From Arthrobacter sp. efr-133-TYG-118 (lineage in GTDB: Bacteria; Actinomycetota; Actinomycetes; Actinomycetales; Micrococcaceae), in contig NZ_JARVRH010000004.1 in the NCBI RefSeq assembly GCF_030209755.1, positions 372,001-436,000 of the forward strand: a stretch of DNA of 64,000 bases, given 5' to 3'. The notes under the pieces were generated by a model. The model did not search any database. It was not told the DNA's origin and was given only the letters and a program-made list of their open reading frames with translations. Within the stretch, counting starts at the first letter, position 1, and each line of letters starts with the position of its first letter. A program made the translations under genes and the position numbers. Below are positions 9,445-49,034 of the stretch, in pieces.

Positions 9445-9667
9445 TGAGGACTCTCCTCGCTAGTTCATTCGACTAGCGGAGCTCCCCCAGAGGCAGCGCC
9501 GAAAACACTCAAACCGAGACCACGAACCTCGTAAGGCCGAGAGTATTCCCGCCAAATGGGGGTGTCAACAAGCTCTGCTAACCCAAAGGGTCGGCCCCCC
9601 GAAGAAGCACTTCAGGGCGTCCGGCTGTTCACTAAATCCGCAGGCCAGGGCCGGGATGCCCCCGGTG
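9445..9667. other. Intergenic region, nothing recognised
   Basis: A stretch of 223 bp between the DUF1326 promoter side and the end of the next gene. It holds the upstream region of DUF1326, but I see no convincing coding frame, RNA gene or strong dyad. Confidence 0.5.
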
Positions 9668-10207: not shown

Positions 10208-10221
10208 AGCAACCCCCAAAG

Positions 10222-10812
10222 CTACAGCGCCCTCACGAACGATCGAACAAGGAGGTCGTCGGAACTGTAGCTGCCTGCCCACGATGCGAAACTTTCGTTG
10301 ATGGCCAGCATGTACAGGCTGACGCGGAATGTACCTTCGTAAGTGCCGTTGAGTCCGGACGAAATATGGGGATAGAAGTCCTTGTGCTCTTCAAAGCTGG
10401 CAAAGATTCCTTCCAGAAGCGCCTTGCGGTCGGGACTAAGGAACCACTCCGACGGCTCATCGGGCTTCGACTCTGCGTATCTTGGGTCCGCCTCCTCCCA
10501 AGAGTCGAGCCATTCCGCAGGGGCATCGAGTACAGCTTCAACTTCGATGCTCATCCCCCTTAAAGTGCCACGAATTGTGTGCCACGAGCCCGGTTCGCCA
10601 GTTTCAAGGCCCGTGACCCTGATTCTGACTGTTGTTGTGTCCAATTGAGCTTGCTCGTGCAGACCGATACGCGGTTCATCCGGGTGCATTCTCGGCCGTA
10701 CATAGGCATGTCCGTCGGCCCCCGTGAACAGCCGACCGCGCGCTTCGACCAAACTTCCGTCTTGGACAGGAAGTAACAGCTGACCGCTGTTTGTGGCTCT
10801 ATTTCTGTTCAT
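10222..10812 (-). CDS. Hypothetical protein
   Basis: A 196-residue soluble protein without signal peptide or membrane segment. The N-terminal half reads as beta strands (TVRIRVTGLETG, IRGTLRGMSIEVEAVL). The C-terminal half is rich in Trp, Tyr and acidic residues and ends in an LLVRSFVRAL helix. I do not recognise a family. The gene ends 15 nt before the downstream lipoprotein start and begins 16 nt after the small secreted protein gene, so the three are probably one operon. Base composition is less GC-rich than in the flanking core genes, which suggests acquired DNA. Confidence 0.6.
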   Translation of the reverse strand: MNRNRATNSGQLLLPVQDGSLVEARGRLFTGADGHAYVRPRMHPDEPRIGLHEQAQLDTTTVRIRVTGLETGEPGSWHTIRGTLRGMSIEVEAVLDAPAEWLDSWEEADPRYAESKPDEPSEWFLSPDRKALLEGIFASFEEHKDFYPHISSGLNGTYEGTFRVSLYMLAINESFASWAGSYSSDDLLVRSFVRAL

Positions 10813-10827
10813 AGCACGGAGCGACCT

Positions 10828-11160
10828 CTACTTCGGAGGATGTACGGAGTCAGGAACGTAAACCCAGAGCGACCAGCGACCGGAATTGAAGGAACCATAA
10901 GGGTTCTGGCGACACTTGTAGCCACGGATATAACCGTGCGTGCTAAGGATTGTGAAAGAGGCATTGATGCAGGTTGCCTCAAAGTAGAAGTTATCCTGCC
11001 AGACGAGCCAAACAAGAGCAACCTGCGGCTCCATGGTTGCATCCACCGCGCCAGCAACGCCCGCAGTCGGAGCAGCGGTGGCGATGCCGGCACTGGTTCC
11101 CGAAAAAGCCAATACTGAAGAAAGCGCGATTGAGCCAAAAGTCTTAAGGAAATTAAGCAT
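10828..11160 (-). CDS. Small secreted protein of unknown function
   Basis: A 110-residue protein with a Sec-type signal peptide: a short basic start, the hydrophobic core FGSIALSSVLAFSGTSAGIA, and a likely AxA cleavage site near residue 30. The roughly 75-residue mature part has two Cys and many Trp/Tyr residues (LVWLVWQDNFYF, GRWSLWVYVPD), as in compact beta-rich extracellular proteins. No family is recognised. It is the first gene of the three-gene leftward unit of unknown proteins, and its codons are less GC-biased than those of neighbouring core genes. Confidence 0.6.
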   Translation of the reverse strand: MLNFLKTFGSIALSSVLAFSGTSAGIATAAPTAGVAGAVDATMEPQVALVWLVWQDNFYFEATCINASFTILSTHGYIRGYKCRQNPYGSFNSGRWSLWVYVPDSVHPPK

Positions 11161-11295
11161 GCCGGATCCCCCAAAGATAAGTCGAAAACATGTTCGTCAA
11201 CAATATTTGCGATCAATATAAAAATCAATAGCTGGCGGAGGCTTTAATCTTAAGGTCAATAACCAGAATTGATTGATGCATCCACGCAAGGCCTC

Positions 11296-11380
11296 GATAC
11301 TACTCAATTCCGACATTTGCACCACTCATTTTGTGGTCTATGCATACTCAATTTCGAGAATGCACCACTCACAGGCGTCC
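11296..11380 (-). repeat. Left cluster of 22-bp-periodic repeats (four copies)
   Basis: On the minus strand the core TGAGT occurs four times. The plus-strand ACTC cores begin at 11302, 11324, 11346 and 11367, spacings of 22, 22 and 21 bp. The consensus is close to AAWTGAGTRGTGCAT. The outermost copy ends in ATCGAGG, which matches the outer end of the right cluster. The innermost copy lies directly after the stop codon of the LuxR-type gene. Confidence 0.75.
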
Positions 11381-11382
11381 CG

Positions 11383-35264: not shown

Positions 35265-35366
35265 CCCTGCGCTGACCCCTCCGCGCTGATCCCAACCGTC
35301 TGGGCTGCCTTACTGTCGGACCGCACTGATAGCTTGGCTTCATCAGCTCAACGGTCTGGGGGCACG

Positions 35367-38300
35367 GTGTTTTTTCTCGATTCTGAAGTTGCAGGGTACG
35401 AGCAGGATCTGGTGTTTTCCGCCAGCGACCTCGTCACGGCCTCCACTTGCGAGTACCAGTTGCTGCGCAAGTTGGATGAGAAGTTGGGCCTCTCCCAGAA
35501 GCCGGCGTTCGACGTCGACGAAATGCTGGAGCGGACCGCCGTGCTGGGCGACGTTCACGAGCACAGGGTGCTGGACCGTTTCGTGGCCGAGTTCGGCATC
35601 TGGGATCCGCTTGCGCACAGGGGCGTGTTCGACGTCGTTCCCGCCGAAGCGATGGACCGCGCCACCCTGCAAGCCAAGCATGCGGAATCCATCGAGGCGT
35701 TGCGATCCGGCGCGGACGTGGTCTTCCAAGCGGCATTCTTCGACGGCCAGTTTCACGGACGGTCCGATTTCCTCGTCAAACAGCCGGACGGCAGCTACGC
35801 GGTGTACGACACCAAGCTCGCCCGCCACGCCAAGGTCACTGCGCTGTTGCAGCTGGCTGCCTACGGAGAGCAGCTGCTCAAGGCGGGAATCACTCCGGCC
35901 CCGGATCTGACCCTTGTCCTCGGGGCCACCATCCAGCGCGACGCTGGCGTGCCGGACGGCCGGGCCGGCTTCGACTACGTGCATAGCAACCACCGGCTCG
36001 CCGATGTCCTGCCGGTATTCCGTGAACGCCGGGACCGCTTCCTTGCACTGACGGGCCCACACCGATCGCGGCTGGAGCCTATCCAATGGGGCGCGCCCGG
36101 GGTCACCGCATGCGGTCGCTGCGACTACTGCAAAGAGCAGGTGCGCCTCCACCGGGATCTGCTCATGGTGGCGGGCATGAGAATCACCCGGCGCAAGAAG
36201 CTCATGGAAAGCGGCATTTTCACCATCGACGCCCTTGCTGAGATGCCCGACGCCGCGGATGCCGCCACACGGCGCCTGCAGGAACAAGCCCGACTGCAAA
36301 CTGGAACAGCCACAGCCGATGGCACCGTGAATTACACCGACAAGGCGGGCACCGCGAAGAGCATCAGCTATTCCGTTCTGGAGCCCAACTCCTTGGCCCG
36401 GCTCCCCCGGCCAGACGCAGGAGACATCTTCTTCGACTTCGAGGGAGACCCCCTGTGGCAAGACCCGGTAACCGGCCGTTGGGGACTGGAGTACTTGTTC
36501 GGGGTCATCGAAAATCCGACGGAGCCGGGCGGATCTCCGGTGTTCAAGCCGTTCTGGGCACATTCCCGGGCTGAAGAACGGCAGGCGTTCATCGAGTTCC
36601 TCGACTACGTGGAAGAACGCCGCATGAAGTATCCGGACATGCGGATCTACCACTATGCGGCCTACGAGAAAACCGCGCTGCGGAACCTGTCGGTCATCCA
36701 CACTGTGGGCGAAGCCGCGGTAGACAATCTTCTCCGCGAAGGCGTGCTGGTGGACCTCTACGACACCGTTCGGCACAGCATCCGCATCTCCGAAGACTCC
36801 TACAGCATCAAGAAACTCGAGCCCTTGTATATGGGCAAGCATTTGCGTTCGGGCGACGTGACCGACGCCGGAGCCTCAGTAGTTGCCTACGCCAACTACT
36901 GCACGGCCCGGGACGCGAACCGCGAAGATGAAGCGGCAACGATCCTCGCGGGCATTTCCGACTACAACGAATACGACTGCCTCTCCACCCTGGAACTGCG
37001 GAATTGGCTGCTGGGCCTGGCAGCGGAACGCTCCATTGAACCCGGTTTTCCGGCCACTTCGGGACCCGAACTGCCCGCGGAGACCGAGCCGGACAAGTAC
37101 GAGGCCGCGCCCGAGGAAACAGCCCTCCTCGACTACCTTGCGGATGTGCCGGACGATTCCCTCCGCTCCGACGACAACCGGGCGGTGGCCATGGTGGCGG
37201 CCGCAGTCGGCTTTCACCGGCGTGAGGACAAGCAATTCTGGTGGGGACACTTCGACCGCCTGGACCGGCCAGTCTCCGAATGGGAAGACACGAGGGACTG
37301 CTTCATCGTGGAAGGCGGCGAAGTGCTGCAGGACTGGGCAAAGCCAACTCCCCGTAGCAATCCGGCACGGAAGGTACGGCTGTTCGGACGCGCCGCCGAC
37401 GGCTCCGGTTTCGCGCCCGGTAAGAAGTACTTCCGGATGTACGGGCCGCCACTCCCCGAGGCCTTCCTCGGCAAGAACGAAAGCGCTCTCGGCAGATCGG
37501 GAATGTCCGGCACGGAGGTGATCGAGGTCGGCGATCCCGACGACCTCGATGACCGCAGCACGCTTTCGGGGCCCGACGACGGCGCCTCGGATGTCGTGAC
37601 CATTTCGGAGCGACTGCCCAAGGGTGCCGACGAATACTCGCAGCTTCCCATGGCCTTGATGCCCGACGCTCCAGTCAACACGGACGGGCAGAGGAAGGCC
37701 TTGAGCGAACTTGCCATCAAGGTTCGTTCCAGCCTGCCGTTCTGGCCGAAGGATCCGGCCCTGGACTTGTTGCGCCGGATCCCCCCGAGACTGGCCACGC
37801 TTCCGGAACTGCCCGCCGTCGGATCCGGCGACGATGCATACGTGGACGCCATCACCGCCGCTGTGTCGGATCTGGACCAGTCCTACCTAGCCGTGCAGGG
37901 GCCTCCCGGCACAGGCAAGACTTACGTTGGCTCGCACGTTGTCGCGCGGTTGGTGCGTGCGGGGTGGAAAGTAGGGGTTGTTGCACAGTCCCATGCGGTG
38001 GTGGAAAACATGCTCCATGCCGCGGTGAGGGCAGGGGTCGATACGGATGCCATCGCCAAGGAAATGAAGCACGACGACCCCGTTCCCTGGAGCCAGCACG
38101 CCAAGGACGACATTGAGCGGCTGCTTGGATCGCCGGGAGGCTGCTTGATCGGCGGCACGGCCTGGACCATGACCGGGCGGACCGTTTCCGCCGGTTCCCT
38201 GGACTTGCTGGTGATCGACGAAGCCGGTCAGTTCTCGCTCGCCAACACCCTCGCGGTGAGCCGGGCAACGAAGCGACTGCTGCTCCTCGGCGACCCGCAG

Positions 38301-39020
38301 CAACTTCCCCAAGTCACCCAGGGCAAGCACCCCGAACCGGTCGATGAGTCTGCCCTCGGCTGGCTGGCCCACGGCCTGCACACGCTGCCCGCGGAGCTCG
38401 GCTACTTCCTCGCGACATCGTGGCGCATGCACCCGGATCTGTGCGCTGCGGTGTCGGAGCTGTCCTACGATGGTCGCCTGCATTCAGCACCAGCTGCTTC
38501 CACGCGGCGGCTGTCCCGTGTCCCGGCCGGCGTCGAGTGTGTCTACGTCCCGCACAGCGGCAATTCCACGCAGTCTCCCGAAGAAGCTGCGGAGGTAGTC
38601 CGCCAAGTCAGGGCGCACCTTGGCCTGGCTTGGCTGGACCCACGGGAATCTGCCGAGGAGCGGCCGCTGCTTGAAAAGGACATCCTCGTGGTGGCTGCCT
38701 ATAACGCCCAAGTGCAGCTCATCCAGCACGAACTGAGGGCGGCTGGACTCCGCGGCGTGCGGGTCGGGACCGTGGACAAGTTCCAGGGCCAGGAAGCCCC
38801 CGTGGTGATCGAGTCCATGGCTGCGTCTGCTGCCGCCGAGGTTCCGCGCGGCATGGAGTTCCTGCTCTCGCGCAACCGGATCAATGTGGCGGTGTCGCGC
38901 GGCCAGTGGCGGGCCGTCGTCGTGCGCTCACCGGAGCTGACCAACTATCTGCCGACACAGCCGGAAGGGCTAGAGCACCTGGGCGGTTTTGTGGGACTGT
39001 GCCAGCGCGGCCCCAACTGA
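35367..39020 (+). CDS. TM0106-type RecB-like nuclease fused to a UPF1/DNA2-like helicase
   Basis: A 1217-residue protein. The N-terminal part has a RecB-like nuclease core (ASTCEYQLLRKLDEKLG, then the SDFLVKQPDGSYAVYDTKLARHAK active-site strand-helix). A Cys cluster CGRCDYC lies near residue 248. An RNase H-like segment FFDFEGDPLW is near 356 with HYAAYEKTALRNL. The C-terminal third is a superfamily 1 helicase: GPPGTGKT (about 846), LLVIDEAGQFS (about 948), LGDPQQLPQV, TVDKFQGQE (about 1139), and NVAVSRG. It probably unwinds and cuts DNA or RNA, perhaps in repair or defence. GTG 35367 follows GGGGG; a TTG 33 nt earlier lacks support. It is a single-gene unit. Confidence 0.88.
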   Translation: MFFLDSEVAGYEQDLVFSASDLVTASTCEYQLLRKLDEKLGLSQKPAFDVDEMLERTAVLGDVHEHRVLDRFVAEFGIWDPLAHRGVFDVVPAEAMDRATLQAKHAESIEALRSGADVVFQAAFFDGQFHGRSDFLVKQPDGSYAVYDTKLARHAKVTALLQLAAYGEQLLKAGITPAPDLTLVLGATIQRDAGVPDGRAGFDYVHSNHRLADVLPVFRERRDRFLALTGPHRSRLEPIQWGAPGVTACGRCDYCKEQVRLHRDLLMVAGMRITRRKKLMESGIFTIDALAEMPDAADAATRRLQEQARLQTGTATADGTVNYTDKAGTAKSISYSVLEPNSLARLPRPDAGDIFFDFEGDPLWQDPVTGRWGLEYLFGVIENPTEPGGSPVFKPFWAHSRAEERQAFIEFLDYVEERRMKYPDMRIYHYAAYEKTALRNLSVIHTVGEAAVDNLLREGVLVDLYDTVRHSIRISEDSYSIKKLEPLYMGKHLRSGDVTDAGASVVAYANYCTARDANREDEAATILAGISDYNEYDCLSTLELRNWLLGLAAERSIEPGFPATSGPELPAETEPDKYEAAPEETALLDYLADVPDDSLRSDDNRAVAMVAAAVGFHRREDKQFWWGHFDRLDRPVSEWEDTRDCFIVEGGEVLQDWAKPTPRSNPARKVRLFGRAADGSGFAPGKKYFRMYGPPLPEAFLGKNESALGRSGMSGTEVIEVGDPDDLDDRSTLSGPDDGASDVVTISERLPKGADEYSQLPMALMPDAPVNTDGQRKALSELAIKVRSSLPFWPKDPALDLLRRIPPRLATLPELPAVGSGDDAYVDAITAAVSDLDQSYLAVQGPPGTGKTYVGSHVVARLVRAGWKVGVVAQSHAVVENMLHAAVRAGVDTDAIAKEMKHDDPVPWSQHAKDDIERLLGSPGGCLIGGTAWTMTGRTVSAGSLDLLVIDEAGQFSLANTLAVSRATKRLLLLGDPQQLPQVTQGKHPEPVDESALGWLAHGLHTLPAELGYFLATSWRMHPDLCAAVSELSYDGRLHSAPAASTRRLSRVPAGVECVYVPHSGNSTQSPEEAAEVVRQVRAHLGLAWLDPRESAEERPLLEKDILVVAAYNAQVQLIQHELRAAGLRGVRVGTVDKFQGQEAPVVIESMAASAAAEVPRGMEFLLSRNRINVAVSRGQWRAVVVRSPELTNYLPTQPEGLEHLGGFVGLCQRGPN

Positions 39021-39068: not shown

Positions 39069-39812
39069 CTAGTTGGGCAAGCCCAGCGCCTCGTCCAAGA
39101 CCACCCCGAAGTTCGCGGCGTCGTGGGCGAAGCGGCCTAGGAAAAGTCCGGACACACCCCGCAATTCCGGCAGGAGCCCCGGTTTGGCGGAGCCACCGTA
39201 AATGATCGGCAGCCCCGCGAGGCCATGCTCGGCGAGCGATTCGCGGAGGTGAGCGACGACGTCGGACACGTAAGCCGCGCCGGCCGGCTCGGCAGCGCCG
39301 ATGGCCCACACCGGTTCGTACGCAATAACCAAGCGGGCCGCCGCCGCCCAGTCCTCCCGGACGGCGGCAGAGATCTGCCGAAACACGAACGACGCCGACA
39401 CCGCCGGATCGGCGACGGCTTCCTCGCCGACACACAGCAGCGGGGTCAACCCTGCTTCCACCGCGGCCCGGACCTTCAATGCGACTACGGCGTCGTCTTC
39501 GCCGAAGTGCCGGCGTCGTTCCGCGTGTCCGATCTCCACGAGGCGCACACCGAGCTCCGCCAGCAGCGACGGTGACACTTCACCCGTCCAAGGACCCTGA
39601 GCCCAGCCACAGTTCTGCGCACCCAGGAGTAGGGGAGAGCCCTCGAGTATCCGGGCAGCCTCGGGCAACACGGGGAACGACGGGATCACAAACGGGACCA
39701 CCCGCCCGGCCACCAGGGCCGGACGGGCGTCCACTTCACCTCGCAGGTGCTCCAGCCAGGACAGGCTGTGCCGGTAGCCCATGTACATCTTGGTGCTGAC
39801 CCCGATGTACAA
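39069..39812 (-). CDS. Triose-phosphate isomerase-family sugar phosphate isomerase (tetrulose-phosphate isomerase candidate)
   Basis: A 247-residue TIM-barrel isomerase. Catalytic residues are conserved: Lys8 in STKMY, His96 in EIGHAERR, Glu166 in AYEPVWAIG, and the phosphate loops YGGSAKPG and LFLGRFAHD. The N-terminus GVSTKMYMGYRHS differs from glycolytic TPI (GNWKMN). Such paralogues act in tetritol catabolism, for example EryH in Brucella, where they isomerise tetrulose phosphates. It is the last gene of a seven-gene operon with kinase, dehydrogenases and two more isomerases. I take TTG 39812 as start, 4 nt after the stop of the MFS gene; the frame is open further up. Confidence 0.82.
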   Translation of the reverse strand: MYIGVSTKMYMGYRHSLSWLEHLRGEVDARPALVAGRVVPFVIPSFPVLPEAARILEGSPLLLGAQNCGWAQGPWTGEVSPSLLAELGVRLVEIGHAERRRHFGEDDAVVALKVRAAVEAGLTPLLCVGEEAVADPAVSASFVFRQISAAVREDWAAAARLVIAYEPVWAIGAAEPAGAAYVSDVVAHLRESLAEHGLAGLPIIYGGSAKPGLLPELRGVSGLFLGRFAHDAANFGVVLDEALGLPN

Positions 39813-39816
39813 CGGT

Positions 39817-41166
39817 CTACTTGCCCAGGAGGTCGTCGGCCTTGTTCCTGAATGCCCGGGTGCCATACATCATGGCGGCCGCGAGGAAGGGCAGGATTCC
39901 GAGCGCATAGACCCCGGCAGATCCGGTGGGGTCTGCCGCGGCACTGTTGACCGCGGTCCGCAGAATCGGAGCCACGAAACCGCCCAGGTTGCCCAGCGAG
40001 TTGATCAGGCCGATGCCGGCCGCGGCTGCGGAACCGGCAAGGAATGCCGTGGGGTACGCCCAGACGACGGGCCCGACAGCGAGGAAGCTGCACACCGCTA
40101 GCGTGATGAAGATCAGTCCGAGCACCGGCTGGTGGTTGGTCCCGGCCCACGCCGAACCCAGGATGCACAGACCCGTCGAGACGAACAGCACCGTGCCGAA
40201 CATGCGGCGCTTGGCGACAGTGTTGGCTGCCCGGCCGATCAGGTAGCAGGAGAAGATGCCGAAGAACCACGGAACCGCAATCAGGAGGCCGACGGCGAGG
40301 CCCACCTTCTGGCCTGTCAGCGAGGAAACCTGCTGCGGGAGGAAGAAGGTGACGCCGTAAACGGCGATCTGCAGGCAGAAGTAGATGAGGGTGAAGTACC
40401 AGACGCGACCGTTGCGCATCGCCGCAAACACGCCCCGCGGCCCGGTTTCATCCTTGACGGTGTCCTCCTGAGTCATGATCTCCTTGAGCGCGAACTTCTC
40501 GTCGACGTTGAGGAACTTGGCCTTCTCCGGGCCGTTGATCAGGAAGAAGAACGCCGCCACGCCAGCGAGCACGGCCAGGATGCCCTCGGTGAAGAACATG
40601 ACCTGCCAGCCACGGACGCCCGGAAGCTGGTCGCCGATGTTGATGAGCCAACCCGAGAGCGGATTGCCGATCATCTGCGAGAACGGCTGGGCGAGGTAGA
40701 AGATCGCGAACATCTGCACGCGCACTTTGTTCGGGAACCACTCGGCCAGGTACATGATGACGCCCGGAAACAGGCCCGCCTCGGTCACGCCGAGAAGGAA
40801 CCGCAGGATCACGAAGGACGTCTCACCCTGCACGAACGCAAAACAGGCCGAGACGATGCCCCACGTGATCGCGATACGGGCAAGCCAGATCTTCGCGCCG
40901 ACCTTCTTGAGCAGCAGGTTGCTGGGGATTTCGAAGATCGCGTACCCGATGAAGAAAATACCGGCACCGAGCGCGAACGCCCCGGCCGAAACACCTTTGT
41001 CAGCGCCGAGGGCGGCTTCGGCGAAACCGACATTGGTGCGGTCGAGGAAGGAGACAACATAGAGGATGACCAGCATCGGCATGAGCCGGGTGGCAGCCTT
41101 GCGGATCGCCGATTTCAGGACCGGCGAATCCAGCATCTCCTTCGTGGATGAAGTGGCAAGGGACAT
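39817..41166 (-). CDS. MFS transporter, anion:cation symporter (ACS) family
   Basis: A 449-residue carrier with 12 predicted helices. The family pattern includes LPMLVILYVVSFLDRTNVGFAEAAL in TM1, FFIGYAIFEIPSNLLLKKVGAKIWLARI (motif A), and LLGVTEAGLFPGVIMYLAEWFP. ACS-family carriers usually import organic acids such as sugar acids, tartrate or phthalate; here the neighbours suggest a four-carbon sugar, polyol or sugar acid. ATG 41166 is chosen for its GAGGAG 5 nt upstream; a longer frame reaches 41250. It is gene six of the catabolic operon. Confidence 0.9.
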   Translation of the reverse strand: MSLATSSTKEMLDSPVLKSAIRKAATRLMPMLVILYVVSFLDRTNVGFAEAALGADKGVSAGAFALGAGIFFIGYAIFEIPSNLLLKKVGAKIWLARIAITWGIVSACFAFVQGETSFVILRFLLGVTEAGLFPGVIMYLAEWFPNKVRVQMFAIFYLAQPFSQMIGNPLSGWLINIGDQLPGVRGWQVMFFTEGILAVLAGVAAFFFLINGPEKAKFLNVDEKFALKEIMTQEDTVKDETGPRGVFAAMRNGRVWYFTLIYFCLQIAVYGVTFFLPQQVSSLTGQKVGLAVGLLIAVPWFFGIFSCYLIGRAANTVAKRRMFGTVLFVSTGLCILGSAWAGTNHQPVLGLIFITLAVCSFLAVGPVVWAYPTAFLAGSAAAAGIGLINSLGNLGGFVAPILRTAVNSAAADPTGSAGVYALGILPFLAAAMMYGTRAFRNKADDLLGK

Positions 41167-41221
41167 CGAAACTCCTCGTTGAGTAATGACAGATGAGTAG
41201 TCAGGTTTCAGGCATTCGGGA

Positions 41222-41989
41222 TTAGTGCATGTACAAGCCGCCGTCGACATTCAGCGTCTGGCCCGAGATGTAGCCGGAGTCTTCGCTGATGAGGAAGGCG
41301 ATGGCGGCGGCGATGTCCCGGGTGGAGCCCACACGGTTCACCACGAGGTCCTTGGTGAGTTCGTCCTTGCGTTCCTGGCTGAGGGTGCCGCCCATGATGT
41401 CGGTGTCGATCGGGCCGGGAGAAATGGCGTTGACGGTGATGTCGTACTCCCCCAGTTCGCGGGCGGTGGCACGGGTCAGGCCGATGACTCCGGCTTTGGC
41501 CACCGAGTACGGGGTTTTGGAGAACGTCCCGCCGCCGCGCTGCGCGGAAACCGAGGAGATGTTCACGATGCGTCCGATGCGGTTCTTGACCATGGATTCG
41601 GCCACGCGGCGGGTGGCGTAGTGGACGCCGTTGAGGTTGATGTTCAGGACGCGGTTCCATTCGGCTGGCTCGAGTTCCAGATACGGGATCGGTGAGCTGA
41701 CGCCGGCGACATTGGCGAGGGCTACGATCTGCGGCAACTCGGCTTCGAGGGTGTCGATCGCCGCGCGCACGGATGCTTCATCGGCCACGTTGGCACCGAC
41801 GCCGTAGGCCTGTACGCCGTATTCGGCGGCGATTTCCTTGGCGGTGCTCTTGCAGAGGGCGTCGTCGAGGTCGATGATGCCGATGTTCCAGCCCTGCGCC
41901 GCCAAGTAGTTGACGGTTGCCCGGCCGATGCCGCGCTCGGAAACGGCGCCGGTGACAATCGCGGTGCGTTCTGCGGGGAAGGTGCTCAT
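41222..41989 (-). CDS. SDR family oxidoreductase (polyol/ketose dehydrogenase candidate)
   Basis: A 255-residue classical short-chain dehydrogenase. Cofactor motif TGAVSERGIG (about 13-22) and LANVAG (about 91-96); catalytic Ser in ISSVSAQ (145-148), Tyr161 and Lys165 in YSVAK; C-terminal SGQTLNVDGG. IIDLDD after strand 2 points to NAD(H). In the operon it would oxidise the imported polyol to the ketose or act on the reverse reaction; the exact substrate is inferred from context. The ATG at 41989 has AGGAG 7 nt upstream, and the frame before it is not supported. Confidence 0.88.
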   Translation of the reverse strand: MSTFPAERTAIVTGAVSERGIGRATVNYLAAQGWNIGIIDLDDALCKSTAKEIAAEYGVQAYGVGANVADEASVRAAIDTLEAELPQIVALANVAGVSSPIPYLELEPAEWNRVLNINLNGVHYATRRVAESMVKNRIGRIVNISSVSAQRGGGTFSKTPYSVAKAGVIGLTRATARELGEYDITVNAISPGPIDTDIMGGTLSQERKDELTKDLVVNRVGSTRDIAAAIAFLISEDSGYISGQTLNVDGGLYMH

Positions 41990-42014
41990 GGGTATTCTCC
42001 TGTGAATGTCGGGA

Positions 42015-42992
42015 CTAGTTGATGGGTGCCGGGCCGAGCTCATCAATGAGCTTCTGCATGGCCACGTAGGCCTTGTTCCGGTAAGCGATGAGTTCGGGCG
42101 TGCGTTCCGCGGGGACGTTGAGGAACCCTGCCCCGGTCTTGGTCCCGAGCTTTCCTGCCTCCACGAGGTCGCTCAGGATCTTCGGGGTGGCGAAGCGTTC
42201 CGGGAATCCGGTCTGCAGGGATTTGTAGCAGAAGTCGTAGACGTCCAGTCCGGCCATGTCTGCGATGGCGAACGGACCAAAGAACGGCAAGCGGAAGCCG
42301 AACGTCGTACGGACCAGGGTGTCGACGTCGTCGGCTGTTGCGATCCCCTGCTCCACCAGCTGCGCGGCCTCGTGGAAAAGCGCGTATTGCAGCCGGTTGA
42401 GCACGAAACCGGTGACGTCCTTGACGACGGCGGTTTGTTTTCCGGCCGCGTGGACCAGTTCACGGGACGCGGCAACGGTCTCCGGCGTGGTGCCGGCGTG
42501 GGGAATGATCTCGACGCCGGGAATGAACGGCGACGGGTTGGAGAAGTGCACGCCCAGGAACCGCTCCGGACGCGCGACGGCCTCGGCGAGATCGGCGATG
42601 GAGATGGTGGAGGTGTTGGAGCCGATCAAGGCGTCAGGACGGGCGGCGGCGCTGATGCGGGCCAGGGTCTTGTGCTTGATGTCGAGGACCTCTGGGACGG
42701 CTTCTTCGATGAAGTCGGCGTCCGCCACGGCCTCTTCGATGTCCTTGGCCGCCCACAGATTGGCCTTCAGGATTGCCGTGGACCCTTCAGGAAAGAGGCC
42801 CGCGGCCACGAATTCGTCCGACTCCACGAGCAGGCGGTCGTAGTTCTTCTGCGCGATTTCCGCGGACACATCCGCCAATGCCACGCGTGCCCCGCCGAGG
42901 GCCAGGACCTGCGCGATCCCGCCGCCCATGTACCCGGAGCCGACGACGGCGATCTTCCGGGCCGCCGTCGTGGTGCTTGTTGATTCAGTCAT
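42015..42992 (-). CDS. 3-hydroxyacyl-CoA dehydrogenase family protein, sugar-pathway member
   Basis: A 325-residue NAD-dependent dehydrogenase of the 3HCDH/L-gulonate dehydrogenase superfamily. The Rossmann motif IAVVGSGYMGGGIAQVLAL is at about 14-32. Catalytic-type residues are in GSNTSTIS, VHFSNPSPFIPGVEII and VTGFVLNRLQ. The C-terminal dimer domain has GPFAIADMAGLDVYDF. Fatty acid enzymes are the best-known members, but sugar acid and carnitine dehydrogenases share the fold. The operon has no acyl-CoA genes, so a hydroxy-acid or polyol-phosphate substrate is more likely here. It begins 1 nt after the RpiB-like stop codon. Confidence 0.83.
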   Translation of the reverse strand: MTESTSTTTAARKIAVVGSGYMGGGIAQVLALGGARVALADVSAEIAQKNYDRLLVESDEFVAAGLFPEGSTAILKANLWAAKDIEEAVADADFIEEAVPEVLDIKHKTLARISAAARPDALIGSNTSTISIADLAEAVARPERFLGVHFSNPSPFIPGVEIIPHAGTTPETVAASRELVHAAGKQTAVVKDVTGFVLNRLQYALFHEAAQLVEQGIATADDVDTLVRTTFGFRLPFFGPFAIADMAGLDVYDFCYKSLQTGFPERFATPKILSDLVEAGKLGTKTGAGFLNVPAERTPELIAYRNKAYVAMQKLIDELGPAPIN

Positions 42993-42993
42993 G

Positions 42994-43476
42994 TCACACT
43001 GCCTTTGTGTAATCGGGCTCGTAGGAGCAAATGGCGTCCACCTTGGCGGCGGAAGATGATGTTTCGTCGAAGTGGTGGCCCAGCCATTCGTCCACCAGTT
43101 TCTTGGCCAGTTCCAAGCCAATCACCCGCTGTCCCATGGTCAGGACCTGGGCGTTGTTGCTCAGGACCGAGCGCTCAACGGAGTAGCTGTCGTGCGCGGT
43201 GACGGCACGGATTCCGGGAACTTTATTGGCCGCGATGGCCACGCCAAGGCCCGTGCCGCAGATCAAGAGGGCACGGTCTGCTTCGCCCTCGGCAACTTTG
43301 CGCGCCGCGTCCACGGCAACGTGCGGGTAGGCGGTGGAGTCGTTGACGCCGACGCCAACATCCTGAACGGACGCCACCCGGGGATCGGCCTCGAGCAGCG
43401 CCATGAGCGCCTGCTTGTATTCCACGCCGGCTTCGTCATTGCCGACGACAATCCGCCAGCCCTCTGAGGTGGTCAT
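42994..43476 (-). CDS. RpiB/LacAB-family sugar phosphate isomerase
   Basis: A 160-residue isomerase of the ribose-5-phosphate isomerase B family. Key segments are the N-terminal [15 protein letters not shown] (phosphate and catalytic Asp region), [42 protein letters not shown] with active-site Cys73, and [27 protein letters not shown]. EryI-type RpiB homologues convert D-erythrulose 4-phosphate into D-erythrose 4-phosphate, and that would be the exit to central metabolism here. It overlaps the kinase gene by 4 nt (ATGA). Confidence 0.87.
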
Positions 43477-45227
43477 GCTTGAACTCCGTTTCCTGCCGGG
43501 AGCGCCGGCTGTGAACCGCCCAGCTGCGCATCGATATGTTGTGAGATCCTTGCCGTGATCAGCCCGAAGGAGACCGCGCCAGGATCAGGGTGGCCCAGGC
43601 TCTTCTCGGCGAGCGGACGCGCCCGGCCCTTGAGCGGACGCAAACGAGCCGTCTCAGCTGCCGCGGACTCGGCCGCCGCAGCAGCAGCCGCAAGGGCCCG
43701 GTCAACCGGGGCTCCGGCGTCGAACTCTGTGAGGAACGCGTCCCGGTACGGCAGCAGCGCGTCCACCATGGTCTTGTCGCCAGGTTCGGCTTTGCCGAGC
43801 TCCGTGATCGCGTCCACAAAGCCCGTGACGGCGGCCGCCGCGTCTTCGCCCGAGTAACCCGCCTTGTTGCCGAGCGCCTGCCCGGCCGCAATGATCGCTG
43901 AGCCCCACAGGGCGCCCGAGGTACCGCCGGCGCGTTCGCTCCAGGCCTCCCCCGCTGCCGTCAGGATCCGCCCGACCGAGGCCCCGATTGCCGTCTCGGC
44001 TGCGGTGAAAGCCGCCTCCACGCCGCGTCGCATGCCGATGCCGTGGTCGCCGTCGCCGGCAATCGCGTCCAGCTTGCCGAGTTCTCCTTCATGCTCGACG
44101 ACGACGTCCCGCACCTGGGCGAGCACGGCCACGGCCTGCCGCCCGAGTTCGGCAGCAGCTTCGGTGGGCTGCTCGACGTCGGACTCGTCCACCGCGGTGA
44201 CGCTCGCTTGGTTGCGGGGCGGGCGGGGCGCGAGGTTGCCCTTGCGGAAGGCGGGGGTGTCCGCGGGTGCAGCCCAATACTGCTCGAGCTCCTCGTCCAG
44301 CCACAGCAGCGTCAGCGAAAGACCGGACATGTCCAGGCTTGTCACGAGCTCGCCGCACCCGGGTTCCACCACCGTGAGTCCTGCTTTGCCGAGGAGCTTG
44401 TCGATCTTGCCGAAGAGCAGAAAGAGTTCGTCGTACTTGACCGTGCCGAGGCCGTTGACGATGGCCACCACGCGGTTTCCGGCGTCGTCGGGCTTGTCGT
44501 TGAGGAGCTTGGAGACGAGAAGTTCGGCGAGCTCGGACGCCGTGGGCATTTTGTGCTCGGAAATGCCCGGCTCGCCGTGGATGCCCAGGCCGAGGGACAT
44601 CTGGCCGGCCGGAACGTGGAACAGCGGGTCCGAGGCGCCCGGAAGGGTGCAACCGTCGAAGGCCACGCCCAGCGAGCGTGTGCGGTAGTTCGTTTTGATC
44701 GCCAAGCGCTCGACGGCGTCGAGGTCCAGTCCCGCTTCGGCCGCGGCGCCGGCGATCTTGAAGACCGTGAGGTCGCCCGCGATTCCCCGCCGCTTTTCGA
44801 TCTGGTCCAACGGAGCGCTGGCGATGTCGTCGGTAACAGTCACGGTGCGGGTCTCGATGCCTTCGGCGTTGAGCCGCAACTGGGCTTGGCCGAAGTGCAG
44901 CACGTCTCCTGCGTAGTTGCCGTAGCTGAGCAGGACTCCGCCCCCGGCGTTGGCTGCTTTGGCGACCCGATATACCTGGCCCGCCGCCGGGGAAGCAAAC
45001 ATGTTGCCGCACGCCGAGGCGGTTGCCAGGCCTGGTCCGACCAGTCCTGCGAAAGCGGGGTAGTGCCCGGAGCCGCCGCCCACCACCAAGGCGACCTGCC
45101 CGGTTGGGACTTCGGTGGACCGGACCACTCCGCCGTCCACCCGGGCAACATAGCCGCGGTTGGCGGCGACGAATCCGTCCAGCGCATCGTCCGCAAAGTC
45201 TGCGGGATTGTCGAAGATCCTTGTCAT
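43473..45227 (-). CDS. DhaK-DhaL fused ketose kinase (dihydroxyacetone/erythrulose kinase type)
   Basis: A 584-residue ATP-dependent kinase with both domains in one chain. The DhaK part (1-330) has [20 protein letters not shown] and GNMFASP. The covalent substrate His is about residue 217, in [11 protein letters not shown]. The DhaL part (about 370-570) binds ATP-Mg through the Asp cluster in [12 protein letters not shown] (about 394) and [12 protein letters not shown] Pro/Arg linker joins them. Single-chain enzymes of this kind phosphorylate dihydroxyacetone, glyceraldehyde or erythrulose. The neighbours (three isomerases) favour an erythrulose. The gene starts 4 nt after the stop of the upstream sugar isomerase. 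Confidence 0.9.
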
Positions 45228-45231
45228 GGTT

Positions 45232-46269
45232 CTAGACGCCAGCCAGTTGGGAGGCTACTGGTTGGGTGGACCCGGACTCGGTCCGACCGGAAGGCTGCTG
45301 CCGGCCCTGGGCGACCTGGCTCTGGCCGAGGACGTAGTTCTCGGTCTTCGGAAGGACCTGGCGCCGGAGGTATTCCTGGTTGCTCGCCGTGACGCTGAGC
45401 CCGTCGCCGCCATAGTGCTCGGTGCACAGGATGCCCTGGAAGCCCACCGAGAGCGCGAGCTTGAAGGCTTCGCGGTAGTTGATAAGGCCGCTCTCCATGG
45501 GCGCAGGCATGGTGATGTAGCTGTCGCGGGCCACGTCTTCGTCGCGGATGTAGTTCTTCATGTGCCAGTAGTTGGAGTACGGCAAGGTCTTGGCCACCAT
45601 CTCGCGCCAGTCCTCGATGGGACGGTGGAGGCGGATCAGGTTGCCGAGGTCCGGGTTGAGGCCTACGTTGGCGAGCCCGATGTCCTGGACCAGCTGGACC
45701 GAGGAATCGGCAGTGCCGAGGTAGGTGTCCTCGTACATTTCGAGGGATAGGAGGATGCCGGCTTCCGCGGCGTGCTCACCGAGTTCCCGCAAGCGTGTGA
45801 CCGCGTTGCCCCAGGCGTCCTTGTCCCCGACCGGATCCTTGTAGCCCTCCACCGTCCAGAACCACAGCTGCTTTTGCTGCTCGGCGGTGATGGCCTGGTG
45901 GAGTCCGAAGGAAACAACCTCGCAGCCTAGTTCGGCTGCGGCGTCGATGGTTCGGTGGCTGTACGCCAGGTTCTCGGCCCAGTCGCGGGCGTGGATGACG
46001 CTGCGGCGGATGGCCGAGATGACCGGGATGCCAATGCCAACGTGCTCTGCGGTCTGTTTGAACTCGGCGAGGCGTTCCTTACTGAGGTCCCCCGGGCGGA
46101 CCCAGCTGTCCGTGAGGTCTGCGTTGGCGAAACCTGCGTCCTTGACTTCCTGCAGAACCTCGGCCCAAGAGGATGCGTCGGCGTCGTTGATGTGCTGTCC
46201 CGTGGCGTCAGTGCCGGGGAACTGGAGCAGGGCCGCGGTGATGGGCCAGGTTTCGGCGGTGTAAGCCAT
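45232..46269 (-). CDS. Xylose isomerase-like TIM barrel (EryC-like sugar phosphate epimerase/isomerase)
   Basis: A 345-residue AP-endonuclease/xylose-isomerase-type barrel. Metal-ligand Glu and His candidates stand in ILLSLEMYEDTYLG, VGLNPDLGNLIRLHRP, YWHMKNYIRDED and GILCTEHYGG. A Gln/Ser-rich tail of about 30 residues ends the protein. Relatives such as EryC act on tetrulose or tetrose phosphates; others are inositol or hydroxypyruvate isomerases. It is the first gene of the leftward operon. ATG 46269 has GAAGGAG 8 nt upstream. A TCCTATAGGA palindrome lies 29 bp before the start. Confidence 0.82.
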   Translation of the reverse strand: MAYTAETWPITAALLQFPGTDATGQHINDADASSWAEVLQEVKDAGFANADLTDSWVRPGDLSKERLAEFKQTAEHVGIGIPVISAIRRSVIHARDWAENLAYSHRTIDAAAELGCEVVSFGLHQAITAEQQKQLWFWTVEGYKDPVGDKDAWGNAVTRLRELGEHAAEAGILLSLEMYEDTYLGTADSSVQLVQDIGLANVGLNPDLGNLIRLHRPIEDWREMVAKTLPYSNYWHMKNYIRDEDVARDSYITMPAPMESGLINYREAFKLALSVGFQGILCTEHYGGDGLSVTASNQEYLRRQVLPKTENYVLGQSQVAQGRQQPSGRTESGSTQPVASQLAGV

Positions 46270-46297: not shown

Positions 46298-46307
46298 TCC
46301 TATAGGA
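46298..46307. promoter_or_regulatory. Operator palindrome TCCTATAGGA of the catabolic operon
   Basis: A perfect 10-bp palindrome 28 bp upstream of the first operon gene. The identical sequence is present at 49025-49034 in front of the GntR gene, so it is the likely site of that regulator. Confidence 0.75.
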
Positions 46308-46403
46308 TTTACTATCTAAGCAAGACTGTCAACATATTTATTTGGACTTCCGCGGGCTGGCCCCGACCTTCCCGCCCCCGCGCCGCGCGTCATCGAAGAT
46401 CCT

Positions 46404-46460: not shown

Positions 46461-48170
46461 CTAGGAAAGCGACTTGCCGCCGCGCAGGGCCGAGGCAAAG
46501 GCGGCCACCAGGCACGCGGCAATGGCAAAGGCGAACGCCACGGCCAGTCCTTCGGCGAACGGGCCGGAAATCAGGCTCGGGAAGAAGGAGCGGCCGGTCA
46601 GGAAGGCCGCGTCCTTGGCCGGGAGGGCGCTCAGCACTTTCGGTCCGAGGAGTGTCTGCACGGGGTTGTAGCCCAGCAAGGAGGAGAACAGCACAGACAC
46701 CGGCGGCAATTGGGCGACCTTTGCGGCGTCGGCGGCAGCCACCCCGTGTGCCGTCAGCCCTGAGGTCAGAGTCTGCGGCAGCGTCCTCGCCAGCCCGGTG
46801 ATCATGAGCCAAAAGAAAATACCGATGGAGAGCACCATGGCCGAGTTTTGGAACGTTGTGCTCATGCCTGCGCCCACGCCGCGGCGGTTGGGCGGCAGCG
46901 CGTTCATGATGCCGGCCCGGTTGGGCGCGGCGAACAATCCCATGCCCAGGCCGTTGACCAACAATGCCAGCGAGAAGGGCAAGTAGGTGAAGTTCACAGG
47001 CAGCACCAGCAACCACAGGAAGCTGGCCGCTGCCACCACCATGCCCAAAGTGGCCAGCAACCTGGCCCCGTGTCGGTCGGATAGCCAGCCGGAGACCGGG
47101 CCAGCGATCAGGAACCCCGCGGTAAGGGGCAGCATGTAGATCCCGGCCCAGAGCGGCGTGGTTTCAAAGCTGTAACCGTGCTGGGGCAGCCAGATCCCTT
47201 GCAACCATATGATCAGGATGAACATCAGGCCGCCCCGGCCGATCCCGGACATCAGGGAGGCCAGGTTTCCGGCGGTGAAGGCACGGATACGGAACAGTGC
47301 CAGATGGAACATCGGCTCTTCAATCCTCATCTCCACCCAGCAGAACACTGCCAGCACCGCGGCGCCTCCTATCAGCTCTGCGAGCACCCATGGGTTGGTC
47401 CAGCCCATGGTGTTCCCGCCGTACGGCTGGATGCCGTAAGTGATGCCTACCAGCACGGCGACCAGACCCACCGCGAACGTTGCGTTGCCCCACCAGTCCA
47501 GTTTCGCGGGCTGCCTGATCCCCGTGTCATGCAGGCTCAGGTAGGCCCAGACGGTGCCCGCCAGCCCCACCGGCACGGAGACAAGGAACACCAACCTCCA
47601 GTCCAGCGGACCCAGCAGCCCGCCGATGATCAGGCCCAGGAAAGACCCTGCGATGCCGGCCACCTGGTTCAGGCCCAATGCCAGACCGCGCTGGTCGATC
47701 TCGAAGACGTCGGTGATGATGGCCGTGGAATTGGCCATCAACATGGCGCCGCCGACGCCCTGCAGGACCCGCATGATGATCAGCCAGAGAACGCCCGCGG
47801 TGCCGGAAAGCCAGGTGAGGGACAACAGTATGGAGAACACGGTGAAGATGCCGAAGCCGGCGTTGTACATTTTCACCCTGCCGTGCATATCGCCGAGCCG
47901 GCCAAAGGTCACCACCAACACCGCCGTGACCACCATGTAGCCCATGACCAGCCACAACAGCATGCTCGTGTTGCCCGGGGCCAACGGTTCGACCTGGATG
48001 CCACGGAATATGTCAGGCAGGGCGATCAGCATGATGGAGGAATTGATGGTCGCCATCAGCACGCCCAGCGTGGCGTTGATCAGGACTATCCACTTGTAGT
48101 GCGGGCTGGCAATCGCGCGCTCCATGCGGGCCTGGCGTTTGCCCCTGGCGATTTGGGTCTTTGTTGCCAT
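46461..48170 (-). CDS. MFS transporter, DHA2 family
   Basis: A 569-residue carrier with about 14 predicted helices. It has LINATLGVLMATINSSIMLIALPDIF in TM1, FGRLGDMHGRVKMY (motif A), and IIMRVLQGVGGAMLMANSTAII (motif C-like). Helix 13-14 are separated by a roughly 60-residue extracellular loop. DHA2 carriers export drugs or metabolites; some carry sugars or siderophores. It lies between the GntR gene and the catabolic operon on the same strand, so export of a pathway intermediate or toxic analogue is possible. ATG 48170 follows GAAGGGG by 8 nt. Confidence 0.87.
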   Translation of the reverse strand: MATKTQIARGKRQARMERAIASPHYKWIVLINATLGVLMATINSSIMLIALPDIFRGIQVEPLAPGNTSMLLWLVMGYMVVTAVLVVTFGRLGDMHGRVKMYNAGFGIFTVFSILLSLTWLSGTAGVLWLIIMRVLQGVGGAMLMANSTAIITDVFEIDQRGLALGLNQVAGIAGSFLGLIIGGLLGPLDWRLVFLVSVPVGLAGTVWAYLSLHDTGIRQPAKLDWWGNATFAVGLVAVLVGITYGIQPYGGNTMGWTNPWVLAELIGGAAVLAVFCWVEMRIEEPMFHLALFRIRAFTAGNLASLMSGIGRGGLMFILIIWLQGIWLPQHGYSFETTPLWAGIYMLPLTAGFLIAGPVSGWLSDRHGARLLATLGMVVAAASFLWLLVLPVNFTYLPFSLALLVNGLGMGLFAAPNRAGIMNALPPNRRGVGAGMSTTFQNSAMVLSIGIFFWLMITGLARTLPQTLTSGLTAHGVAAADAAKVAQLPPVSVLFSSLLGYNPVQTLLGPKVLSALPAKDAAFLTGRSFFPSLISGPFAEGLAVAFAFAIAACLVAAFASALRGGKSLS

Positions 48171-48318
48171 CACAACCACCCCTTCCGGCCCGGGGCCGCT
48201 TCGGGATTGTTACTTCACTAAAAACCCTAAACCCGGGGGTGGCACGGGGAACCTCCCGGTGGCGACAACTTTGCCCGTGGTTCTGTTCCTCCCGGGCCGC
48301 CGGGTGCCAGACGGCAGC

Positions 48319-49017
48319 TTAGTCAGCGGGCGCGTCGGCAATAGCCCGGGCCCGGACCTTGTGCACATGGTCTGCCATGGCTGCTGCGGCCTGTTCCGGG
48401 TCGCCGCTCGCTAGCGCCTCGAGCACGGCTTGGTGTTCCGCAATGGCCTGTTCTGCATCCGTGATACCTACTCCCCCGAACAGCCGGAACCGCTGGACCT
48501 GGCCCCCCAGCGCGGTGTAGGCGGCAAGCATGAATTGGTTGCCGGACTGCTCGGCGATCAGCTTATGGAAGCGCTCATCAGCCTCGAGATAGTCCCGGAA
48601 TTCCATGAAAGAAGGGCCCCGGGGAGCCGTCTCCAGGTCCTTCACGGCCCCTCGCAAGTCCGCCAAACCCTCTGGGGTGATCCGACTGCACGCCAGCCGG
48701 GCATTCACTGGCTCAATCGCGAGCCGGGCCTCCATGAGCTCCGCAAAATCTTCGCGCGTGAAGACCGGGGCCACCCTGTAACCCTTAAGGGCAACTCGGC
48801 GGACCATGCCTGTGTGCTCCAGCCTCGCCAGCGCCTCACGCACAGGAGTCGGGGAAACGTCCAATTCCCGTGCCGTGCCGTCGATGCTGACCGCGGCTCC
48901 CGGTTCGAGCCGGCCGTCCATGAGCCAGGCGAGAAGTTCCTCGTAGACGTGGTCGGCGAGAACCTGGCGGCTGACGGGTCGGCCGGGGGCGCGGTCCCGT
49001 GAGGAAGCGAGTTTCAT
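48319..49017 (-). CDS. GntR family regulator, FadR/FCD subfamily
   Basis: A 232-residue regulator. The N-terminal winged helix (about 22-75) has LADHVYEELLAWLMDGRLEPGAAVS and ARELDVSPTPVREALARLEHTGMVRR. The C-terminal FCD domain (about 85-215) binds small acids or sugar phosphates through a metal site with Asp/His in FRDYLEADERFHKLIA and MADHVHK. The ATG at 49017 is chosen; its ribosome site AGGA is part of the TCCTATAGGA palindrome at 49025-49034. Bound regulator would therefore cover its own ribosome site and promoter. It probably controls the tetrulose-type operon. Confidence 0.9.
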   Translation of the reverse strand: MKLASSRDRAPGRPVSRQVLADHVYEELLAWLMDGRLEPGAAVSIDGTARELDVSPTPVREALARLEHTGMVRRVALKGYRVAPVFTREDFAELMEARLAIEPVNARLACSRITPEGLADLRGAVKDLETAPRGPSFMEFRDYLEADERFHKLIAEQSGNQFMLAAYTALGGQVQRFRLFGGVGITDAEQAIAEHQAVLEALASGDPEQAAAAMADHVHKVRARAIADAPAD

Positions 49018-49024
49018 AGACAAA

Positions 49025-49034
49025 TCCTATAGGA
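49025..49034. promoter_or_regulatory. Autoregulatory operator palindrome TCCTATAGGA of the GntR gene
   Basis: It is identical to the palindrome at 46298-46307. It lies 7 bp upstream of the GntR ATG and contains the ribosome site. The flanks (AAATCCTATAGGAATGG) extend the AT-rich half-sites. Confidence 0.75.

Follow-up and report, generated by a model that had tools for sequence, protein, structure and literature searches.

What is broken down by a bacterial operon in which a Dha-type kinase stands beside proteins of three isomerase folds, two dehydrogenases and a carrier? Such an operon is found in Arthrobacter sp. efr-133-TYG-118, within the stretch of 64,000 nucleotides analysed here (positions 372,001 to 436,000 of contig NZ_JARVRH010000004.1; hereafter, the window). 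An earlier note on this DNA took it for a distinct route leading, perhaps from a tetronic acid, threitol or erythrulose, to D-erythrose 4-phosphate. The answer to which we incline, at slightly better than even chances, is that the operon serves to take up a pentonate, to oxidise it at C3 and decarboxylate it to erythrulose, and to convert the erythrulose by a kinase and isomerases to D-erythrose 4-phosphate, all under the control of a GntR regulator; every reaction, the substrate and the regulation we infer from sequence. The genes concerned are the following.

45232-46269, minus strand, xylose-isomerase-like TIM barrel (Pfam AP_endonuc_2)
43473-45227, minus strand, ATP-dependent DhaK-DhaL fusion kinase (DhaKL), proposed erythrulose kinase of the LerK type (Pfam Dak1 and Dak2)
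42994-43476, minus strand, RpiB homologue (Pfam LacAB_rpiB)
42015-42992, minus strand, 3HCDH-type dehydrogenase, proposed aldonate 3-dehydrogenase (Pfam 3HCDH_N and 3HCDH)
41222-41989, minus strand, SDR (Pfam adh_short_C2)
39817-41166, minus strand, MFS carrier of the anion:cation symporter (ACS) kind (Pfam MFS_1; TIGR00893 is the best named model)
39069-39866, minus strand, triose-phosphate isomerase (TPI) homologue (Pfam TIM)
46461-48179, DHA2-family MFS gene between the GntR gene and the barrel gene
48319-49023, minus strand, GntR/FCD regulator, proposed regulator of the operon (Pfam, locus comparison, adjacent palindrome)

In the scheme that we propose, the MFS carrier would import the sugar acid, most likely a pentonate from D-xylose or L-arabinose, and the 3HCDH enzyme would oxidise its C3 hydroxyl. 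The 3-oxo acid would then lose CO2, spontaneously or in the barrel, to give erythrulose, which DhaKL would phosphorylate and whose carbonyl TPI and RpiB would shift to yield D-erythrose 4-phosphate.

A probable trunk towards erythrose 4-phosphate

All seven operon genes lie on the minus strand just where the earlier note had placed them, their Pfam assignments are above the curated cut-offs, and each family named there stands at Pfam level. The packing is indeed tight: counted from the barrel gene to the TPI gene, the distances are 4, -4, 1, 25, 55 and -50 nt, that is, overlaps of 4 and 50 nt and gaps of 1 to 55 nt. The order GntR-barrel-DhaKL-RpiB-3HCDH-SDR-ACS-TPI is complete in 51 of 80 named loci from a barrel scan (the best 80 of 442 relatives), which are not independent because they come mostly from Arthrobacter and the close genera Paenarthrobacter and Pseudarthrobacter. 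The operon is neither a relic nor an artefact. What had been missed is that an orthologous GntR/FCD regulator is part of the unit: in the loci that keep this order its gene lies directly upstream of the barrel gene, whereas in the window the DHA2-family gene is interposed, for which the 80 related loci contain no counterpart at E <= 1e-40.

How far do the kinase and the two isomerases tell what is phosphorylated? The kinase scores 755.9 bits with NF011049 (cut-off 492) and 353.3 bits with the glycerone kinase model TIGR02361, under its cut-off of 575; RpiB reaches 160.2 bits with NF051858, DerI(Rhiz), below the cut-off of 240; and the best PDB matches of TPI are 3s6d (139.0 bits) and then 11ef, named 'L-erythrulose-1-phosphate isomerase' (138.3 bits). 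No LerK or LerI model is among the model matches of the scanned window genes. The gene set of an L-erythrulose module, namely DhaKL with a TPI-type and an RpiB-type isomerase, is present in the operon, and the same trio recurs in two other loci, L173 and L009. These comparisons support the view that kinase, RpiB and TPI look like a module for a four-carbon ketose ending at D-erythrose 4-phosphate.

Similar modules are known. The tetritol pathways of M. smegmatis (LerK, LerI and DerI with EltD or DthD; Huang et al. 2015, after PMC10733421 and PMC12780249) have a Dha-type kinase, TPI-type and RpiB-type isomerases and D-erythrose 4-phosphate as end product, as we propose for the window; they differ by a polyol dehydrogenase on top and an ABC transporter where the window has an acid-type carrier. 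The reactions of LerK, LerI, DerI, EltD and EryC are described in PMC10733421. The Dha-type kinase, put forward before as a novel point, is therefore not one: LerK precedes it (PMC10733421), and so does the dihydroxyacetone kinase stated for genomes without eryA and eryB (PMC5992420). The Brucella/Rhizobium erythritol pathway also has a TPI (TpiB/EryH), an RpiB (EryI) and an AP_endonuc_2 barrel in common with the window, and for the first two the correspondence drawn in the earlier note holds. Its FGGY kinase EryA and its glycerol-3-phosphate-dehydrogenase-like EryB, both present in the rhizobial reference locus L172, are missing among the ten genes scanned between 39069 and 50367, which agrees with the lack of EryA remarked on before. 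The operon is not a Brucella-type erythritol pathway.

The same genome (5.28 Mb in 50 contigs) offers further comparisons. It has six Dak1 genes, five of them DhaK-DhaL fusions, and all five fusions (L008, L009, L010, L011 and the window) adjoin an RpiB gene while their other partners differ. L009 contains an ACS-like carrier, TPI, another barrel, a PGDH_C dehydrogenase and a D-apionate-lactonase-like gene (ApnL match of 181 bits, cut-off 750). L010 and L011 look alike, with SDR, RpiB, DhaKL, ABC-type transporter genes and a regulator with a sugar-binding domain, and the SDR of L010 passes the GolD/DthD model (325.7 bits, cut-off 286). On an Arthrobacter plasmid, L173 carries annotated kinase, RpiB and TPI genes with two Zn-type alcohol dehydrogenases. 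The pattern across these modules is that of one putative trunk from erythrulose to D-erythrose 4-phosphate fed by different upper modules. The cluster of L008, at 8214-12117, has an SDR 44% identical to that of the window and a barrel without similarity to the window barrel.

The trunk can also stand apart. Four Kushneria genomes, among 14 genomes or records queried, have a lone barrel-3HCDH pair and carry the trunk elsewhere, with DhaKL 54-55% identical (one with an in-frame TAG), RpiB 48-52% and TPI 47-48%; in the two examined, L174 and L175, a transketolase gene adjoins the trunk genes. Transketolase genes beside modules of the erythrulose-phosphate type were seen in L174, L175, L010, L165 and L171, which is consistent with an output of erythrose 4-phosphate. 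In Pararhizobium (L186:202-8602), a TRAP transporter, a split transketolase, an SDR, a small barrel and a DhaK kinase apparently form another ketose-like route.

The 3HCDH-barrel pair and its proposed regulation

What, then, feeds the trunk in the window? The best PDB match of the 3HCDH enzyme is 4om8 (176.5 bits), and lambda-crystallin 3ado gives 119.5 bits. Its segments HFSNP, GVEII, NTSTISI and VLNRLQ align with 3HCDH enzymes, and we take the residue roles within them to be catalytic. The window enzyme is here proposed to be an aldonate 3-dehydrogenase. A match at E <= 1e-60 exists in 68 of 297 genomes of the same order. Among 40 loci examined, which were chosen by their 3HCDH match, the barrel is found in 35, always on the same strand and in 33 within 3.7 kb, together with DhaKL in 31, RpiB in 26, TPI in 24 and SDR in 23. 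Conversely, 3HCDH is present in 75 of the best 80 barrel loci, and four of those lacking it are stretches that end near the match (L093, L094, L143, L156). In two genomes with a 3HCDH homologue but no barrel in the stretch, G255 and G170, RpiB gave no match and DhaKL none of full length. The barrel is seldom met beyond this order: at E <= 1e-30, 4 of 296 phylum genomes match it, and a single one of these belongs to another order. This co-occurrence argues strongly that barrel, 3HCDH and trunk act in one predicted pathway.

The first alternative, which we hold unlikely, is met at this point. As in M. smegmatis, a polyol or a free tetrulose might be broken down: the SDR would oxidise erythritol or threitol to erythrulose, followed by kinase, TPI and RpiB, with 3HCDH and barrel reduced to side activities. 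In its favour, the trio of DhaKL, RpiB and TPI is similar to LerK, DerI and LerI (PMC10733421) and the second-best PDB match of TPI is an L-erythrulose-1-phosphate isomerase. However, the steady core of the loci is the barrel-3HCDH pair, not the SDR, in a sample selected by 3HCDH; the separate tetritol-type operons L173 and L010 list neither such a 5tnv-type barrel nor 3HCDH; and the carriers are of the acid type. A tetritol dehydrogenase of the EltD or GolD/DthD type was not found either: the window SDR has 151.3 bits with GolD/DthD (cut-off 286), and there is no Zn-type alcohol dehydrogenase among the scanned genes. The nearest PDB entries of the SDR are FabG-type reductases, which give no hint of its substrate; it may serve to form the acid from the sugar or belong to another step.

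For a link between the pair and the trunk, the sequences upstream of the genes were compared.

46298-46307, operator-like palindrome TCCTATAGGA, 28 bp before the ATG of the barrel gene
46327-46332, conserved TTGACA, upstream of TCCTATAGGA
49025-49034, second palindrome, directly upstream of the GntR gene

Upstream of the barrel gene, TTGACA is found in 18 of 19 compared sequences and the palindrome in 17 of 19; a scan with a consensus promoter gave nothing convincing. The window has five matches within one mismatch where 0.13 are expected, four of them being the two palindromes read on both strands and the fifth lying elsewhere. The 11-mer ATCCTATAGGA occurs at only two sites in the whole genome, one in front of the barrel gene and one in front of the GntR gene. 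For the 10-mer there is a third site, on contig C47, which we take for chance because a reversed control also yields one site and the flanking genes look unrelated by eye. An extended operator, ATCCTATAGGA-N-AGGAT, has one site each in 10 of 39 relatives searched.

More telling are 17 genomes in which barrel-3HCDH and kinase lie in separate units. In eight of them (L050, L051, L058, L060, L061, L069, L071, G251) the exact palindrome stands before both halves: in L060 one site is shared between divergent halves, in G251 the halves are on different contigs (L048 and L176), and in the seven genomes with separate sites the palindrome lies 14-103 bp from the extrapolated starts. The halves would thus form one regulon, and the shared palindrome links 3HCDH and barrel with the erythrulose trunk independently of any single operon. 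Not all split genomes conform, and these count against a common control: seven have the palindrome before neither half (L053, L154, G200, G047, G007 and two Kushneria), and two are discordant, L166 having it only before the kinase gene, and L049 having it exact before the barrel gene and with one mismatch before the kinase gene. Nor is the palindrome universal, since it is missing in 98 of 188 loci, many of which are short or of other kinds; the Kushneria and rhizobial loci belong to these 98. We infer that the GntR protein controls the barrel-3HCDH and kinase halves as one regulon, and it would act on the unit through TCCTATAGGA. In short, as far as sequence comparison goes, a known erythrulose trunk here carries an upper module that is conserved and comes with operator-like sites and a regulator gene of its own.

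An acid as the probable substrate, and which acid

Is the substrate an acid? In the window the carrier is the sole feature that speaks for it, with 269.9 bits to the D-galactonate transporter TIGR00893, under the cut-off of 395. More comes from relatives. On rhizobial, Shinella and Paracoccus plasmids, a barrel of 50-56% identity accompanies a kinase of the DhaK family, a PdxA-like dehydrogenase and a tripartite tricarboxylate transporter, and the tested stretches of this kind (L163, L164, L170) have no 3HCDH match. In L169, on a Streptomyces plasmid, the barrel is accompanied by DhaKL, RpiB, GntP and a HIBADH-like dehydrogenase without 3HCDH; the nearest named model of that dehydrogenase, at a score below the cut-off, is L-threonate dehydrogenase, which acts at C2. 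Dehydrogenase families thus alternate beside the same barrel and kinase: 3HCDH, PdxA-like and HIBADH-like. PdxA, HIBADH/6-phosphogluconate dehydrogenase and 3HCDH are separate families whose usual reaction is the oxidation of a beta-hydroxy acid. The gene that comes after 3HCDH in L058, L154, L159 and L166, and after TPI in L052 and L153, codes for a GntP permease, and an SGL lactonase gene follows 3HCDH in L056. The upper half appears to fit an acid oxidised at C3 and then decarboxylated better than a polyol, and with the 3HCDH enzyme and the acid-type carrier the operon is set apart from erythritol use, as the earlier note supposed in calling the route distinct.

The alphaproteobacterial cluster of PdxA-like dehydrogenase, tripartite tricarboxylate transporter, barrel, DhaK and GntR (L163, L164, L167, L168, L170) includes pSymB of S. 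meliloti and would be a good genetic model for the barrel; literature searches on the combination of PdxA, this transporter and DhaK found nothing relevant.

A beta-keto aldonate that loses C1 is a ketose one carbon shorter, so that a tetronate gives dihydroxyacetone and a pentonate gives erythrulose. Only erythrulose needs RpiB, and hence a pentonate fits the module. This bears on a second alternative, rather improbable to us, in which the 3HCDH enzyme oxidises a tetronate at C3 to dihydroxyacetone, DhaKL makes dihydroxyacetone phosphate (DHAP) and TPI completes the route. Tetronate genes adjoin some of the operons, DhaK folds bind dihydroxyacetone, and PdxA-type enzymes are generally known to act on tetronate phosphates. 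RpiB would, however, have nothing to do, although it adjoins every one of the five DhaKL fusions of this genome and occurs in 26 of the 40 and in 71 of the best 80 stretches; the kinase is below the glycerone kinase cut-off; and the TPI is of a divergent kind that also matches L-erythrulose-1-phosphate isomerase. The L-threonate and D-erythronate pathways (LtnD, DenD, OtnI, OtnK, OtnC, PdxA2) share with our scheme the oxidation of a sugar acid with loss of C1, and their genes sometimes neighbour related operons. In them the acid is the substrate of a DUF1537 kinase, and DHAP is formed (PMC12540250); a DUF1537 kinase with OtnC aldolase or PdxA2 is absent from the scanned window genes, and such genes are neighbours only in some other genomes. 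Of the substrates suggested at the outset, then, tetronic acid becomes less likely, as it would give dihydroxyacetone without need of RpiB, and a polyol fits less well, while D-erythrose 4-phosphate is kept as the end product.

For a pentose-derived acid, neighbouring glycosidases and GntP permeases are the indication. In L052, L055, L160 and L169 the operon has a GH3 gene nearby, which in L055 directly adjoins the barrel gene and is read from the same strand; the best model of all four is NF052329, beta-xylosidase/alpha-L-arabinosidase (982-1034 bits). In L075 one strand carries GH39, an aldo/keto reductase, ABC transporter genes, SDR, 3HCDH, barrel, kinase, RpiB and TPI, the GH39 protein being nearest to beta-xylosidases. 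There is a precedent for the chemistry in mammals, whose L-gulonate 3-dehydrogenase is, we assume, the 3HCDH-family lambda-crystallin. In the proposed mammalian pathway, this dehydrogenase converts D-xylonate to D-erythrulose, an activity reported from pig kidney (PMC6201911), and oxidation of an aldonate at C3 with decarboxylation to a tetrulose is what we propose here; in mammals the product is reduced to D-threitol, with no dedicated operon of kinase and isomerases. By our own reasoning, D-xylonate, L-arabinonate, D-lyxonate and L-ribonate have the C3 configuration of L-gulonate. Products of ascorbate breakdown of the L-xylonate and L-lyxonate types (PMC6225978) were considered in view of L-threonate-type neighbours and set lower, since by the same reasoning L-gulonate and D-xylonate have the other configuration at C3. 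Our confidence that the substrate is a pentonate is moderate.

The role of the barrel depends on which pentonate enters. Its best structural relative is M. smegmatis 5tnv (310.7 bits), whose title says only 'xylose isomerase-like' barrel. As reference for EryC served the TIM barrel between an EryB-like dehydrogenase and TPI in L172, named by position; the window barrel, this EryC and the L009 barrel are all AP_endonuc_2. The identification of the barrel with EryC, made in the earlier note, was rejected: BLASTP finds no similarity to the L172 protein (E 0.28), and hhalign gives 5.7% (E 0.0068) with an EryC profile of only 3 sequences, as against 96.4% (E 1.2e-9, 212 columns), still a distant relation, with a profile of L009-type barrels. 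Of the residues presumed to form the metal site, E176, D206 and E283 do not vary in 17 aligned rows, and H235 is Q in three (L076, L078, L080). A structure model (mean pLDDT 79, four stretches under 50) finds 5tnv first (Z 35.1, root-mean-square deviation 2.7, 301 aligned), and then, at Z 21-25, SCO6571, Art22, a 2-hydroxy-3-keto-glucal hydratase and ketose 3-epimerases; one of the latter is an L-ketose 3-epimerase whose structure was determined with L-erythrulose. The fold cannot separate a decarboxylase from an epimerase, and a beta-keto-acid decarboxylase or an erythrulose 3-epimerase is weakly suggested. If an L-pentonate such as L-arabinonate were used, L-erythrulose would arise directly, TPI could be used directly and the barrel would best be read as a decarboxylase. 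If it were D-xylonate, D-erythrulose would be formed, and either the barrel, as a D/L-erythrulose (or 1-phosphate) 3-epimerase, or another enzyme would give the L series for TPI, or the kinase would make D-erythrulose 4-phosphate.

The relation to the L009 barrel raises a third alternative, a branched or modified acid related to apionate, used in parallel to an ApnO/OiaC-type route of L009. Carter et al. in 2018, a study cited in PMC6302742, reportedly described a route from D-apionate to L-erythrulose via ApnO and OiaC, and L009 we assign to it by assumption, its barrel being called 'OiaC-like' here. That route has an acid carrier, an oxidation, a supposedly decarboxylating barrel, kinase, TPI and RpiB in common with the window; the apionate-type barrel profile is the nearer of the two tested, and the lower module is the same. 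Yet its dehydrogenase is of the PGDH_C family where the window has 3HCDH, its barrel is a distant relative, and neither a PGDH_C-type dehydrogenase (ApnO) nor an ApnL lactonase is present in the window operon, the candidates being in L009. Chemically, the tertiary C3 alcohol of D-apionate could not be oxidised by a 3HCDH enzyme, the genome has its separate apionate-type cluster in L009, and the linked glycosidases are xylosidase/arabinosidase-like. We therefore regard this alternative as quite improbable.

Points against the route, and its meaning

What weighs against the pentonate route as proposed? In the lower half, RpiB passes TIGR02133, named ribose-5-phosphate isomerase (201.2 bits, cut-off 168.2), and in G200 and G047 the sole TPI beside barrel, 3HCDH, DhaKL and RpiB in the gene set is housekeeping-like (34-37%), so L-erythrulose 1-phosphate is not the route everywhere; the two genomes would fit a kinase making D-erythrulose 4-phosphate. 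The pair is not strict: L155 is a full-length barrel locus without 3HCDH, five 3HCDH loci lack the barrel, and one of the genomes concerned, G059, nevertheless contains DhaKL, RpiB and a TPI of 50% identity. The role of the SDR is unexplained by the route. As for the pentose, the GH3 scores are just below the curated cut-off of 1050, and the window operon itself contains no glycosidase or lactonase. Other neighbours point elsewhere: an L-threonate-dehydrogenase-like gene, below cut-off, in L049 and L169, a DUF1537-type kinase in L049 and L149, a D-erythronate dehydrogenase, above cut-off, in L154, and in L126 a levoglucosan-dehydrogenase-like gene (363 bits, cut-off 650) with ThuA, hinting at other sugars. 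With these tetronate genes a four-carbon acid keeps some likelihood, and from them and from L126 it follows that the substrate may differ between lineages.

Described bacterial non-phosphorylative pentose routes pass via 2-keto-3-deoxypentonate (PMC6336799), and searches of the literature collection used here showed no bacterial route from a pentonate to erythrulose. It might be possible, and we offer this tentatively, at somewhat less than even confidence, that a further such route exists: a pentose would be converted to the pentonate and oxidised at C3 by 3HCDH, elsewhere by PdxA-like or HIBADH-like enzymes, and a new barrel family would decarboxylate the product to erythrulose, leading to D-erythrose 4-phosphate and bypassing 2-keto-3-deoxypentonate. 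Which dehydrogenase family is used would then depend on how the acid is configured at C3, with the same barrel and kinase throughout; by this rule the PdxA-like enzyme of the S. meliloti pSymB cluster would act on the opposite C3 epimer. If such a route exists, bacteria would gain one more way to use plant pentoses, for which a precedent has been proposed in mammals, with a distinct carbon map from C5 to C4 and CO2 that feeds erythrose 4-phosphate. Structure 5tnv, whose title names no function, would receive one, and the five DhaKL-RpiB modules of one soil genome would be explained by varied upper modules on one lower trunk. Enzymes for erythrulose-phosphate engineering would also be at hand; better EryC, LerI and DerI enzymes could come from tetritol users (PMC10733421).

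Two minor observations concern the surroundings. In Arthrobacter sp. Hiyo8 (L140:9001-16235) the same operon is apparently split into shorter frames, by sequencing error or decay. In the window, a protein of 1228 amino acids with the look, by eye, of a nuclease/helicase is encoded at 35334-39020, convergent with the operon.

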